DNA of 20,346 nucleotides from a virus. The stretch lies in IMG/VR virus record IMGVR_UViG_3300042472_000307, positions 1 through 20,346 of that record; one strand, 5' to 3'. Position numbers and translations under genes: made by a program. The notes under the pieces are model-generated. The model worked only from the letters and a program-made list of their open reading frames with translations. It had not been told where the DNA came from and did no database searches. Shown here piece after piece: positions 9,901 to 18,286 of this stretch (its first letter is position 1; the number at the start of each line of letters is the position of its first letter).

Positions 9901-12900
9901 GTCGTTCGTGCTGACGAGCAAGGCCGCGGGGAAACTGTCGGACTCCCTGTATGAGGCTGAGGCCGCTGGTCGTGCGCTGAAGAAGCCGATGGAAGAGCTG
10001 ACGGCCCTCGACACGAAGGGGATGTCCGCTGCCGGGCGGGACATCAACGCCTACCGCATGGATCGCACGGAGACATCGAGGAGGGATGCTGGACTGAGTG
10101 TCCTGGGTTCGGCCTTGACGAACTCCGGCGGCAGCCAGGGCGAGGCTGCGGTGTCGATCAGGCTTCAGCAGGCGATGGCGACGAATGACGACTTGAAGAA
10201 CGTACTGGGCAGCGCACTGTCATTGCAGGAGCCGCGCAGGTCCGCGCAGGAGGCTGGACGCACCCAGATGCAGTCCCTGCGGTCGAGCGCAGCGTCCGCG
10301 TATTCCACGTACGGCATGCAGTACACGCCGAGCAACACTGAACTGAACGACATTCTTGCCGCGCAGGAGGCCGGCCGATACCAGTGGCAGGAGGCGACGA
10401 GGGCTGACGCTATTGGAATGAACCGGTCGTCGGGCTCGATGCAGACGTCGATCAACGCGATGCAGCGCTCCACTGGGGTAACGATCGGGATGATCAACCG
10501 GGACACTGCGACGGGCGAACGGTACGGGCGTGAGGACTTCGCCCGCCAGCAGGACCTGTCGAGGTTCGAGCGGGACAAGACGATCAAGCGTTCGAACAGG
10601 GATTTCGGGACACAGCGCACTCGTGCGACCGTCGAGTACGGCAAGCAGGAGCAGTACTCGACCGAGGACAAGGGGCTTCAGGAGTCCCGGGCGAACCGTG
10701 ACTTCACCCGGCAGATGACCCAGTCCGATGACGACTACCGCAAGAGCAAGTACCGCGCCGATGAGGATTTCAGCACGCAGAAGCTTCGCGCGCAGCGCGA
10801 CTTCGATAAGCAGATGTCACGTGGGCAACGAGACTTCGATAAGGGGTCGCTGCGCGGACAGGAGGACTTCGACCGTGCGCGGGTGCGTGCAACTGAGGAC
10901 TTCAACAAGCAGATCGCCCGCATGGTGGAGGATTCCGCGAAGCAGATGTATGACCCGTGGAAGCGGATCAGCGCCCAAATGGTGATGGATGCCGGGCAAC
11001 TGGTGACGAACTTGAAGGATCAGACGGCGGCCGTTGACAAGCAGGTGTCGAATCTTGCGGAGGCACGGGGGATGGGCCTGTCGGATGCGGCGATCAAGGC
11101 GTTGAACCTGTCGGATGCGTCGAACGCCCAGCAGTTGTCCCGGGTCGTTGACGACATTCGCGGGAACTCCTCGTACGCGGGGCAGATCAATGACGCGGTG
11201 GGCGCGAAGGCGGCGAGTTCTCAGGTACTGGTGCAGGACCAGGGGAACACGTCGTTTGCGCGGGCGCAGGAGGACTTCTCAACGCAGATGCAGCGCGGCG
11301 GCGACGACTTCGCGATTTCGAAGTCTCGTGCGCTCGCGGACTTCGACCAGTCGAAGGCGGACACGAAAGAGGACTTCAAGAAGTCACTGGACGACTCGCA
11401 GGCCGACTTCGACAAGAACATGGTCCGGATGGACACGGATTTCGCGGTGAGCGTCGTGCGAGCGAATCTGGCGTTCGACACGTCGATGGCCGACATGCAG
11501 CAGTCGTTCGACATCTCACGGGCGCGCGCGAAGGAGATGTTCGTCCAGCAGCTTGCCTACTCGAAGGCCGACCACGATCTGGCGATGTCGGACTTGAACG
11601 CGGACTTCGACCATGCGAGCAAGGTCGCAGCGGACAGCCTCGAACTGTCTGTGAAGCGGATGTGGGAGCGGGCACGCACGTCGATCTCGGATGCGGGCGC
11701 TGCGGCATCAGCGCAGATCAAGTCGATGATGGAGCAGTTCTACCAGGTCGGCCAGTCGTCTGCGGCGGGCGATGGCGGCGTGACGCAGATGCTTTCCGAT
11801 GCGATGAAGAACGGGATCGACCCGAAGACGATGGGCGAGGACTGGCAGGCCCGTATCCAGAACTCGCTGGACTACATCAAGACGAACGGCATCAAGGTGC
11901 CGAAAGCGCTGACGGACTTCTATGCGGGCAAGGGGTTCACGGGCGAGGACTTGAAGCCAGCATCACCGACTGTGAGGGAAGCAGAGGGGCTTACCCCAGC
12001 GAAGCCGATCAATGTCCGCGATGAGCACGGTAATCGCCGTCCCGGCATTCCTGACGACGGGATCGACTGGAGCATTGGCGCTCTACAGAAGCAGCACGCC
12101 TTGCTCTTGGAAAAGGCCGGGAACGGGGATTTCAAGGAGATCGGCACGGCCATGTGGGATGGAGTGAAGGAGGGGTGGGAGACCGCTAACCACAACATCT
12201 TCGCCGCCCCGTTCACTATCGCGATCGAAATGGTGAAGAACCTCCTCGGCATCAAGTCCCCTTCGACGGTGTTCAAGGAGATCGGCGAGAACGTCGTCCA
12301 AGGGCTGAAGGATGGCATCACGGGCACGATCGGCGGGGTGTGGGAGAAGATCACGGACCCGATCAAGGACTTGGACATCGGCGGGAAGGTGACCGGGGCG
12401 TTCAAGACCGCGATGGAGTACTTGAAGAAGCTCGGCACCACGATCGGGACGTGGGTGACGGGCGCGTGGGATTCGATCGCCAGTCCCCTGACATCCATTG
12501 ACATCGAGGCGTCGGTGAAGACGGCGTTCTCGAAGGCGAAGGAATGGATCGGCGGCCTGGGGGACAAGACCGGGGGCGCGGCGGACTCGGTGTCGAAGTG
12601 GATCGGGACTGCCTGGGAGAGCATCATGTCAGGCATCCCAACGATCGAGAAGGTCATGGGGAAGGTGCAGGCGGCATTCGGCCTTGGGGATGCGAATGGC
12701 GGCGGCATCGCCCAGTGGCTTCAAGGGCTGAAGGACGCTGAGAAAGACGGCAAGGACACGGTCATGGGCTGGATTGGTGACGCGTGGGGGATGATCCTCA
12801 CCGGTATTCCTGGGCTGGAGATGGTCAAGGAAGCGTTCCGTCCGATGGGCGACGGGATCGTAAAGGTGGTGAACGCGTTGATCGACGCGTGGAACAGTCT

Positions 12901-13342: not shown

Positions 13343-13776
13343 TGGACATCCTTCCGGTGACATGCCGGTTGACGACCCCTGGCGGATGGCTGGTCCTCAC
13401 GGACGGCCCGTACCGGCTGAGTTCGACAGCGTTCGGTGAGCAGGCAACGACATTCAGGCGGTCTGAGGTGAGCAACCCGTTCACTGAAGGATCGTGGACG
13501 GTGAATGCGCAGCGTGAGAACGTCACAGAGTCCTTGGACGTGTATGTGCGAGCTGACACGCCTGCGGGCGTGCAAGGGGCGGTGTCGGGGCTGCTGGAGG
13601 CATTGCGGCAGGTGAACTTCGGGATGGAGGTCACGTTCGACGGTATCCAGACGTTCTACCAGTGCTACTGCGCGGACGTGTCGGTGAAGACCCCTCGCGA
13701 GTTCCGGTTCTCCCGGATGGCGCAGGTGTCTGCGCAGGTCCCTCGACATCCGGGCACTGAATGGAAGGCTGTCTGA
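13342..13776 (+). CDS. Minor tail protein in the distal-tail (Dit) position
   Basis: GGGAG lies 6 bases before the ATG, which overlaps the tape measure TGA (TGATG). The 144-residue product directly follows the tape measure, where the distal tail protein sits. It looks beta-rich with one central helix (AGVQGAVSGLLEALRQV), like the tube-type fold of Dit and related baseplate proteins. NPFTEGSWTVNAQRENVTES and EVTFDGIQTFYQCY are the most structured stretches. At 144 residues it is shorter than most Dit proteins (200 or more), so it may correspond only to the tube-like half. It ends with a TGATG overlap with the next gene. Confidence 0.6.
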   Translation: MDILPVTCRLTTPGGWLVLTDGPYRLSSTAFGEQATTFRRSEVSNPFTEGSWTVNAQRENVTESLDVYVRADTPAGVQGAVSGLLEALRQVNFGMEVTFDGIQTFYQCYCADVSVKTPREFRFSRMAQVSAQVPRHPGTEWKAV

Positions 13777-14186
13777 TGGGCTCACTTTCGACTTGGGGCC
13801 GGTCTGTGGTCGTGAACTCGACGTTTCGACCTGAGGCTGCCCCAGCACTGGGCACGATCTGGCTGGCGTTGACGACACAGGTCCCGGTGTCAACGGATTC
13901 AGGGGACACCCTGCTGGAGCCTGCGGCATCAAGCTACGAGCGGTCCCCTTATGGGGTGGGTTCCTACTTCTGGAACCTGTCCGGGCCGGGGCTGCTCATC
14001 AATGCGCGGGCTGTCGACTGGCGGCAGCCCGATGACAACTGGGGTCAGGTGACGGGATGGGCGTTCTGTACCGAGTCGACGTCGGGGATGGTGCTGGCGT
14101 TCGGAGCACTGCCACGACCTACGACGGTTTCGAGTGGGTCCCGGCTTCGGGTACCACCGGGGGCGATACGCCTCAACCTACTTTAG
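13776..14186 (+). CDS. Minor tail protein, phage tail-fibre-like beta domain
   Basis: The ATG at 13776 shares a base with the previous TGA; an earlier ATG (13761) is not needed. The 136-residue product matches the general pattern of small tail-fibre proteins of the LALHTA...YAR...W family: TIWLALTTQVPVSTDSGD, then EPAASSYERSPYGVGSYFW, then WGQVTGWAFCTESTSGMVLA and a closing GSRLRVPPGAIRLNLL. That family forms a compact beta domain in tail tips. Its last 130 bases are also read in another frame by the next gene. A second protein with the same layout is encoded at 17918-18286. Confidence 0.6.
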   Translation: MGSLSTWGRSVVVNSTFRPEAAPALGTIWLALTTQVPVSTDSGDTLLEPAASSYERSPYGVGSYFWNLSGPGLLINARAVDWRQPDDNWGQVTGWAFCTESTSGMVLAFGALPRPTTVSSGSRLRVPPGAIRLNLL

Positions 14187-15445
14187 ACAGGCTGGACGCC
14201 TTCGCATCCATCATCAACGCGTTTGCCCCGTTCAATGTGAAGGAACTGTGCGACGCGCAGGTGGTGGCCCATGGCATGGGAGAGATCTACGGCAACAAGT
14301 ACGCGGACGTGTTCGACCTGGGGATGCTGTACGTCGGTGAACTGATCGGCGAATGGGGCGCGCATCCCATCGAGTTCCTCCTCATGGACGAGGTCAGGTC
14401 CTCGATGGGCGTTGATATCGTCCTCACGTCTGACCCTCCGGTGACCCGCCGTGAGGAACTGATCCCGGCCCGTGTCGTCGGATTCGAGGTCGATGACTAC
14501 TTCCCGGTGGCGGGGCTGCCGCAGCAGGTCACGGGGCTAGTGGTCGATGCCCGCCCAGTGATCGGCGTGGGACCGCTCACCCAGTTGCAGACGTTCCCTG
14601 AGCCGAGGAACGTGAGCCTGCTCGCATCGAGCCGGTGGCTTCCGTTGAACTGGGCGCTGGACCCGTGGTGCACGGTGTGGGAGCCGTTCTCCGGGTTTGA
14701 CCCTGACCCGATCGAGGCGCTGACAGTGCGGGAACTGTGCGACCTGCCGGAATGCCGCGACGGCGTCCCCTACTTGGTACGCGATTTCCTGCAAGGCGGC
14801 CGCTACCGCATCAGACCGGATGACGTCCGGTACCTGCGGTCGCAGCCTGGCACGAACCCGCAGTACCGGCCCCGCTACACCTACTACCGGGATGGCGGGT
14901 TCGTGAGGAACGCATCAGTGTCGATGTCCGGTGGCCGGCACATGTGGTGCGACGACATCAACTGGAACGCCCAGGAGGTGACGGTGTTCGTCGTGGCGAC
15001 ACTGCACGAGCCTGCCGGTGAGTGGTTCGGGGTGCTGGAGACGGAAGCCCCGAACTTGCAGGGGCTGGATCCGTTCTTCGGGATCAGGTATCACAAGAGC
15101 GGCATGCTGGCGTTGTGGGCTGATTCGATGCTCCTGTCGACGCCGCTATCGAGCGGGATGGCCCGCCCGGCGCAGCCGGTGATCATCGGGCTGAACATCG
15201 ACATGGCGAACAACACGGTGACGATGCTGAGCGCGGACTCGGGGGTGAAGGCCCTGACGACGTCGCTGCCCCGCCGCTACGACAACCGGTCACGGCTGTG
15301 GCTGGGCCGTTCCCCTCAGGGGCAGAACGCGACGGCATCGATGGACATCTTGGAAGTGTCGTACTGGGAGCGACGGTTTGGCCCCGGCGATCTCGCCGCA
15401 GTCATGGGTGAATACGACCGCATGTATGGGGTGACGACGTCATGA
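14057..15445 (+). CDS. Minor tail protein with C-terminal LamG-like domain
   Basis: The 462-residue frame opens with an ATG carrying AGGTGA 4 bases upstream (14047-14052), even though it lies 130 bases inside the preceding gene. The early codons already read as protein (TYDGFEWVPASG), and the next in-frame ATG or GTG is more than 170 bases further, which supports this start. The N-terminal half is an unrecognised Pro/Trp-containing region. From about residue 295 the pattern VTVFVVATLHEPAGEWFGVL, then FFGIRYHKSGMLALWA, then SRLWLGRSPQGQNATASMDI and EVSYWERRFGPGDLAAVMGE is that of a concanavalin-A/LamG jelly roll. Such domains in phage tails often bind glycans, so a role in host-surface contact is likely but inferred. 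It ends in an ATGA overlap with the HicA-like gene. Confidence 0.72.
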   Translation: MGVLYRVDVGDGAGVRSTATTYDGFEWVPASGTTGGDTPQPTLDRLDAFASIINAFAPFNVKELCDAQVVAHGMGEIYGNKYADVFDLGMLYVGELIGEWGAHPIEFLLMDEVRSSMGVDIVLTSDPPVTRREELIPARVVGFEVDDYFPVAGLPQQVTGLVVDARPVIGVGPLTQLQTFPEPRNVSLLASSRWLPLNWALDPWCTVWEPFSGFDPDPIEALTVRELCDLPECRDGVPYLVRDFLQGGRYRIRPDDVRYLRSQPGTNPQYRPRYTYYRDGGFVRNASVSMSGGRHMWCDDINWNAQEVTVFVVATLHEPAGEWFGVLETEAPNLQGLDPFFGIRYHKSGMLALWADSMLLSTPLSSGMARPAQPVIIGLNIDMANNTVTMLSADSGVKALTTSLPRRYDNRSRLWLGRSPQGQNATASMDILEVSYWERRFGPGDLAAVMGEYDRMYGVTTS

Positions 15446-15663
15446 CGACGTTTACGAAGGCAGGCGCGAAGGACTTCAAGTACCTGGTGGGTCGTTTGGA
15501 GCGTGCAGGGCACAAGGTGCAGATGCGCGGCAGCGGCCACTACTTGGTGAAGCACCGGGATGGGATCGGCATGGTGACACTCCCGTCGTCCCCGGGGGAT
15601 TACCGCGGCTGGCAGAACGCGAAGTCGCAGCTGCGCCGCGCCGGGTTCGGTGATGACGTATGA
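15442..15663 (+). CDS. Small HicA-fold protein in the tail operon
   Basis: The 73-residue product resembles HicA/YcfA mRNA interferases. A helix LVGRLERAGHKVQ leads into the strand RGSGHYLVKHRDGIGMVTLP, and the final helix NAKSQLRRAGF closes the small double-stranded-RNA-binding-like fold. HicA proteins carry a catalytic histidine in a G-S/T-H motif, and here GSGH keeps a histidine one place later. No HicB-like antitoxin is next to it, so a simple toxin-antitoxin pair is not visible. It starts in an ATGA overlap and sits between two tail genes, so it is made together with them. It could be a host- or phage-mRNA nuclease, an RNA-binding regulator, or a structural derivative of the fold. The fold assignment is moderately sure; the activity is unknown. 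Confidence 0.65.
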   Translation: MTTFTKAGAKDFKYLVGRLERAGHKVQMRGSGHYLVKHRDGIGMVTLPSSPGDYRGWQNAKSQLRRAGFGDDV

Positions 15664-15725
15664 CGCTCACGTCACCTGTTCCCACCTGTTCCCACCTGTT
15701 CCCGGGAACAGGTGATGACGTATGA
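15660..15725 (+). CDS. Possible 21-residue leader peptide
   Basis: The ATG at 15660 overlaps the HicA-like TGA as ATGA, and the frame runs for 21 residues (MTLTSPVPTCSHLFPGTGDD plus Val) to a TGA at 15723-15725. That stop overlaps the tail hub ATG, again as ATGA. It begins with the same MTL as the tail hub protein, as expected from duplication of that start region. It may act only to carry ribosomes across the palindrome to the next start; a function for the peptide itself is not implied. Confidence 0.4.
   Translation: MTLTSPVPTCSHLFPGTGDDV
15672..15715 (+). promoter_or_regulatory. Hairpin able to mask the tail hub ribosome-binding site
   Basis: GGGAACAGGTGA (15704-15715) ends with AGGTGA, the Shine-Dalgarno of the ATG at 15722. 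It is exactly complementary to TCACCTGTTCCC (15672-15683) and nearly so to the second and third tandem copies. Folding would hide the site, and ribosomes crossing the leader frame would open it. Confidence 0.55.
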
Positions 15726-17908
15726 CGCTCATGGCCCCAGTTCCGCGCCTCATGGACAACAGCATGTCGGGCAGTTGGCGAGTGTGGGTGTACCCGTCTG
15801 GCGTGCGGTCGCTGGAGTCGGCAGTTGACGTGTCGTTCGTCCGCGGGGCACCGACGATGGTTGAGTCGTTGGCGACCGCAGACCCGTTTGGGCCGACGAC
15901 GGCGTCGATCAGGTTCCCGGCAGTGACCCTCATGGACGCGATCGGTGCGTCGGATTTGTGGTGGCTCCAACCTGAGATGGACGTAGACATCGTGTGGGTG
16001 CTGGCGGATGGGGATAAACCTTCGTACCGCTGGGAGGGCTACATGGCCTCATTCGAGTACAGCCCGACCGAGGCGGCGAGTGAACTGTCGGTGACGTTGC
16101 GCGGGGCGATGTTCCAGATGGACAACTACTTGGCGAAGCCGGAGTACGTGTACCAGCCGATCCCGTACGAGGTGGCGATCTCACGACAGTTCACGGGGCG
16201 ACCGGACATGAGGATCGCGCCGCTGCGCACGGAATGGCCGTCGTGGTGGTCAACAAAGTTCAGGCTCGCCGACTATTCAAGCAGGCCCCTATACATGCGC
16301 CCGGTCGGACTGGAGGACGGCTCGAACTGGTCTGGGTCAGTGACGCGCTCCACGGGTTCGTTTGACCAGGTCCTCACCTCCTATGTGCAGGGCCTGCTGG
16401 CGAACATGTACACGGCGAGGGGCCAGTTCACGCTGGCGTTGGACGAGGGCCGCAGGCCGGTGCTGCGGCACCGCGACCGCATCACTGCCCCAGACGACCG
16501 CACCCTCGTCGTGGATTTGCTTACGCCGGGCGTGTCGATGTCGGCGACGAAGGACTACACGCAGCGCTTGAACGCCGTCTACGGGCAGGGCAAGAGCCTG
16601 AACGGTTCGACGTTCTCCGGGATGCAGGTGTCTGCTGACGGTCAGACGATCACGTACGCGCCATATGCCGCGAGGCGTCAGGTGGATCCGATAGACGAGA
16701 ACGACTGGTTTGACCGTTCGGTGATGCGCAAGGAGGTGAACCTGTCGTTCTATGAGGGATTGAGCGAGGTGGAGGCCGCCGACATCGCGAAGGGACATCT
16801 GGCACGGTTCTCCGATCCGGGGGTGACGGGGACGATCACGCTGACTGCCGACCCAGTGCGCGGCGGCGCGTTCTTCTCCCGCTACTTGGTGACAGCTGGG
16901 ATGAGCATTCAGGTGAGGGGCCTGTTCGGGAACCCTGACGGGGTCATGTTCCATGTGACGGAGTCGAATGTCGGCCCTGAGGCGACGGAGTTGACGGTTG
17001 ACGGGAAGTACCGCGACCAGTTGACGGTGCAGGAGGTGACGGCCCGCACCCGTGATTCCCTCGCCCCGATCCGGCTGCTCACGGTCGGCCAGTACAAGCC
17101 GAACATCCCCGACATGCTGTTCCCCTGGTCGTACGCGGACGGGTCTGGGTTCGTGCCGAAGGGCAGCCAGAACCTGTTCGCCGGAATGCCCAGCCAGGTG
17201 ACGTTCCCGTGGGTGGACTGGACGAGGCAGCGCCCGCCGAGGGACCCGCAGTGGGCGGCGAACTACATCAGGATTTCCCCAGCATCGGGGAACGCTGACG
17301 GGAACTGGGCGAACAAGCGCCAGTCGAGGCAGGATTTCGCCGCGTACCCGGTGCGCCTGTCGCAGGCTGGGGAGGCGAGCCTGTTCCAGATCTCCGCCTA
17401 CGACCAGTACGGGTCGGTGCTGAAGGTGCCGTTCCATGTGTCGCTGTACCGGACGAATGGCGTGTCCTATTCGAGCATGCCGTCGTTGGGTATCAGTGAC
17501 GAGCCGGACAACCGGCCGTACAAGGCGGGGCAGCATTACCCGTTCTTCAAGCGTGCATGGGAGGAGTACGCGGAGGATGGCACCCAGTTGAATCCGGATC
17601 TCGTGGGAGCGGTGTCGACGGCGCAGATCATCATCGGATACGGCAACTTCTATGAGAAGGCCGGGTTTTGGCCGGGGACATCTGCGGTGGCAGGCGCGGA
17701 GCCCACTGGGCTGCTGTCAGATTCTGGCGGGTTCTCGTGGGACTTGACGGACGCCGTGTACGGGGTGGACCCGCAGCGGTCCGCTGACGAGAACCTGCGC
17801 TACCCGAACAGGGCTGACGTGTACGTGATGGTCTATTGCGACGCCCAGTTGACGCAGGACGTGTACTTCCTGGGGCGGATCTACCGCAAGGAACCGGGAA
17901 CGGCTTAG
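15722..17908 (+). CDS. Tail hub / large minor tail protein
   Basis: The ATG at 15722 has AGGTGA 6 bases upstream. The 728-residue product is a large beta-rich tail-tip protein. An N-terminal part (residues 1-140, with RVWVYPSGVRSLESAVDVSF, then WEGYMASFEYSPTEAASELS) and a central part (about 200-450, with LTSYVQGLLANMYTARGQFT, DYTQRLNAVYGQGKSL, EVEAADIAKGHLARFSDPGV and LTVQEVTARTRDSLAPIRLL) resemble gp27-like hub proteins of actinophage tail tips. The C-terminal third (about 500-728) is Trp/Tyr/Gly-rich with no recognised domain and may contact the host. It follows the HicA-like gene and the duplicated start region and precedes a tail-fibre-like gene. Hub identity is inferred from size, place and pattern. 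Confidence 0.68.
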   Translation: MTLMAPVPRLMDNSMSGSWRVWVYPSGVRSLESAVDVSFVRGAPTMVESLATADPFGPTTASIRFPAVTLMDAIGASDLWWLQPEMDVDIVWVLADGDKPSYRWEGYMASFEYSPTEAASELSVTLRGAMFQMDNYLAKPEYVYQPIPYEVAISRQFTGRPDMRIAPLRTEWPSWWSTKFRLADYSSRPLYMRPVGLEDGSNWSGSVTRSTGSFDQVLTSYVQGLLANMYTARGQFTLALDEGRRPVLRHRDRITAPDDRTLVVDLLTPGVSMSATKDYTQRLNAVYGQGKSLNGSTFSGMQVSADGQTITYAPYAARRQVDPIDENDWFDRSVMRKEVNLSFYEGLSEVEAADIAKGHLARFSDPGVTGTITLTADPVRGGAFFSRYLVTAGMSIQVRGLFGNPDGVMFHVTESNVGPEATELTVDGKYRDQLTVQEVTARTRDSLAPIRLLTVGQYKPNIPDMLFPWSYADGSGFVPKGSQNLFAGMPSQVTFPWVDWTRQRPPRDPQWAANYIRISPASGNADGNWANKRQSRQDFAAYPVRLSQAGEASLFQISAYDQYGSVLKVPFHVSLYRTNGVSYSSMPSLGISDEPDNRPYKAGQHYPFFKRAWEEYAEDGTQLNPDLVGAVSTAQIIIGYGNFYEKAGFWPGTSAVAGAEPTGLLSDSGGFSWDLTDAVYGVDPQRSADENLRYPNRADVYVMVYCDAQLTQDVYFLGRIYRKEPGTA

Positions 17909-17917
17909 GAGGAACGC

Positions 17918-18286
17918 ATGGCATCAGTGATCTACGACCCGCTTGCCCGTCCGTGGCTTGAGTACTTGATCGGCATCAAATGCTTCGCGAGCCTGCACTA
18001 TGAGGCTCCGGATCCGGCTGATCCTGCCGCGAGCGAGATCAGCAGCCCGACGTATGCCCGGTCGCCGTTGACGTGGGATTTCGCGAAGGACACGTCTCGG
18101 ACGGCGTGGAACGTGCAGGACTTGTCATGGCTGAATCTGGACGCGGTGACGATCGTGGGCGTGGGGGCGTGGACTGATCCGACGAAGGGTGAGTTCCTGC
18201 TGTTCGCTCAGCTCGACGACCCGTACCCAGTTCCTGCTCGCGGCTCGTACACGCTGGCCGCGAATGGCCTGTTCATGCACGTGTGA
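17918..18286 (+). CDS. Minor tail protein, second tail-fibre-like beta domain
   Basis: AGGAGG directly after the previous stop gives this gene one of the strongest ribosome-binding sites in the window. The 122-residue protein has the same layout as the protein of 13776-14186: CFASLHYEAPDPADPAASEI, then SPTYARSPLTWDF, then TIVGVGAWTDPTKGEFLLFA and a closing SYTLAANGLFMHV. This fits the small tail-fibre-type beta domain of siphophage tail tips. The two are distant relatives at most. It is the last gene of the rightward operon and is followed by the terminator region at 18320-18345. Confidence 0.6.
   Translation: MASVIYDPLARPWLEYLIGIKCFASLHYEAPDPADPAASEISSPTYARSPLTWDFAKDTSRTAWNVQDLSWLNLDAVTIVGVGAWTDPTKGEFLLFAQLDDPYPVPARGSYTLAANGLFMHV

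Follow-up and report, generated by a model that had tools for sequence, protein, structure and literature searches.

We analysed a viral DNA stretch of 20,346 nucleotides (the window), in which a 62-bp insert occupies the start of a structural gene encoding a 728-aa protein. The insert is probably an orphan iteron triplet, (ACCTGTTCCC)x3 followed by one inverted half-unit, that was captured by microhomology-guided template switching. Its 10-bp word belongs to a putative iteron type that phages and mobile elements keep beside a VapE, DUF927/Cch-like or AAA_25 primase-helicase. The insertion itself, an identical core occupying separate loci in two sister phages, the word and architecture shared with helicase-side arrays and the lack of a detectable cognate helicase are direct observations, and are presented below together with the readings that we draw from them.

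The layout described in an earlier note on this DNA, with two 21-bp repeats, three units, a palindrome and a 21-residue leader ending at the second ATGA, is exact. The features of the insert and its flanking genes are as follows, G002 and G003 being related phages considered below:

15442..15663, plus strand: 73-aa ORF upstream of the insert, HicA-like by eye only, matching phrog_2089 (unknown function); its ATGA stop represents the ancestral junction
15649..15669, plus strand: first copy of the 21-bp direct repeat, with GGTGAT (Shine-Dalgarno-like) and the ATG at 15660
15649..15682, plus strand: extended 34-bp duplicated segment, equal to 15711-15744 at 30 of 34 positions
15660..15725, plus strand: 21-residue leader frame, MTLTSPVPTCSHLFPGTGDDV, its stop overlapping the next ATG
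15673..15702, plus strand: three tandem 10-bp units (CACCTGTTCC), the iteron-like triplet
15674..15709, plus strand: 36-bp core, ACCTGTTCCCACCTGTTCCCACCTGTTCCCGGGAAC, identical to the array at G002:17282-17317
15704..15714, minus strand: inverted fourth unit, which with unit 3 makes the 22-bp palindrome at 15693-15714
15711..15731, plus strand: second copy of the 21-bp repeat, source of the working Shine-Dalgarno sequence and start
15722..17908, plus strand: 728-aa structural gene without a family match, 96% to G002 and 67% to G003

The repeat GGTGATGACGTATGACGCTCA is present in two identical copies with a start-to-start spacing of 62, and none of 20 shuffled windows contained a 21-bp repeat inside 150 bp; the likeness of the two copies runs beyond the exact repeat to 34 bp. 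Each copy holds GGTGAT-GACGT-ATG, that is, a Shine-Dalgarno-like sequence, five bases and a start codon, so that the duplication re-created a complete translation start, and the leader peptide MTLTSPVPTCSHLFPGTGDDV* ends in a TGA that overlaps the ATG at 15722. The three CACCTGTTCC units start at 15673, 15683 and 15693, with a 10-bp period, and the palindrome formed by the third, CACCTGTTCCCGGGAACAGGTG, is perfect. The first CCTGTTCC of the insert lines up with the Pro-Val-Pro codons native to the downstream gene, and the right arm, the inverted unit, ends in GGTG, which also begins the direct repeat.

The names previously given to the flanking genes found no support. The 73-aa ORF, called HicA-like, matched no Pfam or NCBIfam family and only PHROGs of unknown function, and the product of the supposed tail hub gene matched no family at all. 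Among named phages, a DNA search with positions 15400-16200 and a protein search with the 728-aa gene returned nothing. Elsewhere in the window, a 2118-aa protein (probable tape measure) contains long degenerate repeats around RDFDK/EDFDR at 10500-11500, and two separate genes (13761-14186 and 17918-18286) match PF23140 (podophage GP4 fibre gp80).

Comparison with related contigs supports an insertion event. IMG/VR contig 3300034068_000734 (G001; 68,413 bp) is the same phage with the same insert: it is 100% identical over 18,299 bp of the window and has three differences over 2,091 bp elsewhere. An assembly artefact is unlikely, since the insert recurs in a contig that differs from the window elsewhere. 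The sister phage G002 (69,238 bp; most aligned blocks about 87-90% identical at the nucleotide level) possesses the 73-aa upstream gene and the junction GGTGATGACATATGACGTTCACAGCCCCTGTTCCGCG, with a single ATGA, no 62-bp insert and a native GCCCCTGTTCCG at the Pro-Val-Pro codons. G003, though it lacks the small upstream gene, retains the ATGA overlap. Together, the single ATGA in G002 and the overlap in G003 support an ancestral coupled junction, and the alignments show that the 62 bp were truly inserted at this gene start. The earlier proposal of a 62-bp insertion-duplication that preserved the stop/start junction is borne out by the uninterrupted junction of G002.

The three units and inverted half are also present in G002, but 33 kb away, at 17282-17317, directly after the stop of the gene preceding a collagen-like fibre gene. 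All 24-mers common to G001 and G002 are collinear except for 13 that form the 36-bp core, which is the only out-of-order exact match of at least 24 bp between the two genomes. At about 89% identity the chance of 36 unchanged bases is about 1.5%, implying that the core is either recent or constrained. Of 47 contigs that encode a related capsid, fragments among them, only G001 and G002 carry the array, one each. Two contigs, G016 (L078/L081) and G017 (L079/L080), of 105 and 136 kb, each contain two copies of the capsid gene and look like two related phage genomes joined together.

Two loci in two otherwise collinear sister phages could point to a very small mobile element (MITE-like or REP-like) mobilised by a recombinase in trans. 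However, terminal inverted repeats do not bracket the insert: three of its units are direct, and the sole inverted one lies on one side. Neither a flanking repeat nor a target duplication accompanies the G002 copy, so that the duplication is not of constant length (21 bp in the window, none at G002), and each genome holds a single array. We regard such an element as quite improbable, and a classical transposon is ruled out by the missing target duplication at the G002 copy. Our first hypothesis was that the insert controls the 728-aa gene as a cis-regulatory RNA or translational leader, as the window copy folds into a 14-bp stem (-24.5 kcal/mol, z -4.3) and the leader peptide is coupled to the gene start. 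This was dropped, and we now rate it very improbable: the fold is missing in the G002 copy (z 0.35), the leader is wholly absent from G002, and no Rfam family scored above threshold for the insert, the sole hit lying far below it. Because it is not kept in the G002 copy, we read the RNA stem differently: it is a side effect of the inverted unit. Neither a promoter nor a terminator was seen when looked for at the insert. The suggestion in the earlier note of a selfish or regulatory element is not borne out, given the lack of a fixed target duplication, terminal inverted repeats, a conserved hairpin, a promoter or a terminator, whereas its companion statement, that random slippage alone is not the cause, gains partial support from the array core at another locus in G002 and in unrelated phages. 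What was missed is that the 10-bp word is of a putative replication-origin iteron type.

Two-unit exact matches to this word were present in six viral contigs and relaxed matches in 28; a 42-mer search of phages and plasmids gave chance matches only, and no match to a 23-mer turned up in 84,980 bacterial and archaeal genomes. L005, L011 and L010 have the triple unit in common with the window, over 33, 32 and 29 bp respectively, in all cases beside primase-helicase genes, where three ACCTGTTCCC-type units lie in intergenic clusters with further copies in both orientations. Clustering is specific to the word: at least four sites within 400 bp were found in 21 of the 28 motif-found contigs, whereas only 1 of the 21 contigs with the reversed word had as many (Fisher p=5e-7). 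The reversed word is a fair null for TGTTCC clustering only and not for helicase adjacency; the raw numbers of contigs with the tandem word (28) and the reversed word (21) are not far apart. Although meant as a null, the reversed-word search matched a second class, TTGTCCACCC x3 with a 10-bp period, beside AAA_25 helicases. This second putative iteron class, with three tandem 10-bp units and many TGTCC/GGACA sites, was seen in L189, L194, L195, L198 and L199, and in L189, L194, L195 and L199 it adjoins AAA_25 helicases with Toprim or PriCT_2.

Genes adjoining the clusters in 13 distinct loci encode VapE, DUF927 or AAA_25/DnaB-N helicases or primases: VapE with Prim-Pol or Toprim (L010, L054 and L026), DUF927, mostly with Toprim or a Cch helix-turn-helix (L040, L044, L048 and L064), and AAA_25 or DnaB-N (L005, L039, L042, L057 and L065). 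The helicase of L011, assigned via PHROGs and similarity to L005, is the only protein common to the L005 and L011 phages, in which the three-plus-inverted block is nearly the same. Clusters without a helicase neighbour lie by a methylase (L047), a LAGLIDADG protein (L061) and an integrase (L032). Integrase arm sites (10-bp tandem repeats) were set aside because the array is not near the integrase gene and the recurring neighbours are helicases. On word and gene neighbourhood, the TGTTCCC/GGGAACA clusters beside primase-helicases look like origin iterons, and we infer that they mark origins. Two further contigs drew attention: L012, a 5.6-kb viral contig, stops exactly at the end of an array unit (L012:5530-5571), as if assembly had halted at the inverted arm, and in Nonomuraea (L042:2629-3834) a TGTTCC cluster and AAA_25 helicase lie close to a gene for DpdA (deoxypurine in DNA).

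Eight named-phage loci were picked by helicase similarity only, and arrays in them were read by eye. Repeated words on both strands directly follow the helicase stop in seven of the eight, each with its own word: GGGGACA in Salicola phage CGphi29, GGTACA in Idiomarinaceae phage 1N2-2, GGTTCA in Alteromonas phages PB15 and XX1924, GACAACC in Yersinia phage YeP4, GTAACC in Caulobacter phage Jess A and GTAACAACC in APSE-3. The arrays, all downstream of the primase-helicase in a named phage, are located at:

L202:4496-4760
L203:4508-4770
L204:4484-4740
L205:4484-4740
L207:4646-4900
L208:4787-5040
L209:3707-3960

Several of these arrays centre on a palindrome with TATAG, a TATAG hairpin being present downstream of several helicases in L202-L205. 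Arrays placed directly downstream of a primase-helicase look like a general origin layout. GTTCCC clusters were mostly missing from twelve bacterial loci chosen without regard to the motif, of which four were Actinomycetota DUF927 loci and eight were VapE or weak VapE loci; such a scarcity is expected if the words are element-specific but also if the link is loose. At one Actinomycetota DUF927 locus, L167, many GTCGTTCC repeats in both orientations near 430-690 apparently represent another iteron word.

The window phage has replication genes of its own, with a DnaB_C helicase and Toprim primase in G001 and PolIII alpha domains scanned in G002; an integrase-like protein in G001 was read from sequence. 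None of the replication proteins of G001 and G002 matches the array-linked helicases, and no homologue of these was found. The window array sits alone among structural genes with no adjacent initiator, and since the phage lacks an initiator helicase of this kind, we term the array an orphan. It shares with origins its tandem short direct repeats (three 10-bp units plus the inverted unit) and, over 29-33 bp of identity to L005, L011 and L010, the word and architecture of helicase-side arrays. No cognate initiator gene is adjacent, and no hairpin or unwinding element adjoins the iterons, the surroundings being G+C-rich without the TATAG hairpin or AT-rich part of the putative origins. That the array is the working replication origin of this phage group, moved between loci, would agree with the single array seen in each of G001 and G002, but it is absent from G003 and 44 other capsid-related contigs (some fragments), it lies among structural rather than replication genes and no initiator adjoins it. 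We consider this very unlikely.

Capture by template switching, the likeliest route, would have proceeded as follows. An iteron unit of a foreign origin would pair with CCTGTTCC, the native Pro-Val-Pro codons where the 728-aa gene starts, after which the triplet and inverted unit would be copied from the foreign array. Synthesis would then come back to the phage at the upstream GGTG, re-copying the Shine-Dalgarno sequence and start codon, to yield a 21-34 bp duplication with translation coupling unharmed. One such event would produce both junctions, the triplet, the palindrome and the duplication. The main rival is purely local: slippage at the gene start expanded a native CCCTGTTCC to three units, and the inverted arm arose by a fold-back template switch that returned at GGTG and duplicated the junction, with neither foreign DNA nor function. 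The native CCTGTTCC at the very spot, the first unit in register with the Pro-Val-Pro codons, the GCCCCTGTTCCG at the same codons in G002 and the GGTG that both ends the right arm and starts the direct repeat all agree with local slippage and fold-back, yet the identical 36 bp at an unrelated G002 locus and the same three-unit block beside helicases in unrelated phages are left unexplained. We judge this a minority possibility and prefer capture from a foreign array.

We give the captured array roughly one chance in three of having any real effect. Its likeliest action, if any, would be to bind and titrate the initiator of a co-resident element at high phage copy number (iteron incompatibility); alternatives are a weak ectopic origin or a neutral passenger. 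More specifically, the competitor's origin iterons may serve as a decoy, which would suppress the replication of a co-resident satellite, plasmid or prophage by titrating its initiator helicase, the sister phages having acquired them at different loci. We rate this reading as rather unlikely; the observation itself is an orphan array, putatively able to bind and titrate an initiator.

If the preferred reading is true, 36-bp cassettes of origin iterons can pass from phage to phage unaccompanied by their initiator, with microhomology as the guide, and gene junctions would tolerate them since the start site is copied anew by the duplication. The reading further suggests that VapE, DUF927 and AAA_25 primase-helicases have a common family of origin words downstream (TGTTCCC, TGTCCCC, TGTACC, TGAACC and similar), which would aid in locating origins in uncultured phages and in testing interference between mobile elements. 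The decoy, if real, would constitute a protein-free form of inter-element interference.

Several known systems provide a comparison. The initiators Cch2 of SCCmec and Rep of SaPI bind iterons that lie immediately downstream of the genes encoding them, SCCmec having three (PMC7581432), and the helicase-then-array layout in named phages fits this arrangement. The window array resembles these origins in its short tandem iterons, of a kind associated with the same broad initiator helicase set (DUF927/Cch-like, VapE-type), but it lies between structural genes without a helicase gene, hairpin or AT-rich element. The AAA_25-side TGTTCCC arrays of L005 and L011 likewise have three identical ACCTGTTCCC units and then an inverted GGAAC half, with 32-33 bp identical to the window; unlike the window array, they lie beside a helicase gene within a larger cluster, which has additional sites in either orientation. 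Initiator-binding repeats away from the origin can lower initiation by titration, for example the RctB sites off ori2 of V. cholerae chromosome 2 (PMC6090056), and since extra iterons are known to titrate initiators in this way, a decoy effect on a co-resident element is possible. RctB sites, however, serve a replicon of the same cell and their binding is proven, whereas the window array would address a putative foreign initiator. Finally, Odn of phage ICP1 is a protein that cuts the iterons of the PLE origin (PMC8263062). As in the decoy reading, the phage exploits the origin specificity of a competing element, but in ICP1 a protein acts on the iterons, whereas here the phage would hold the DNA site itself.
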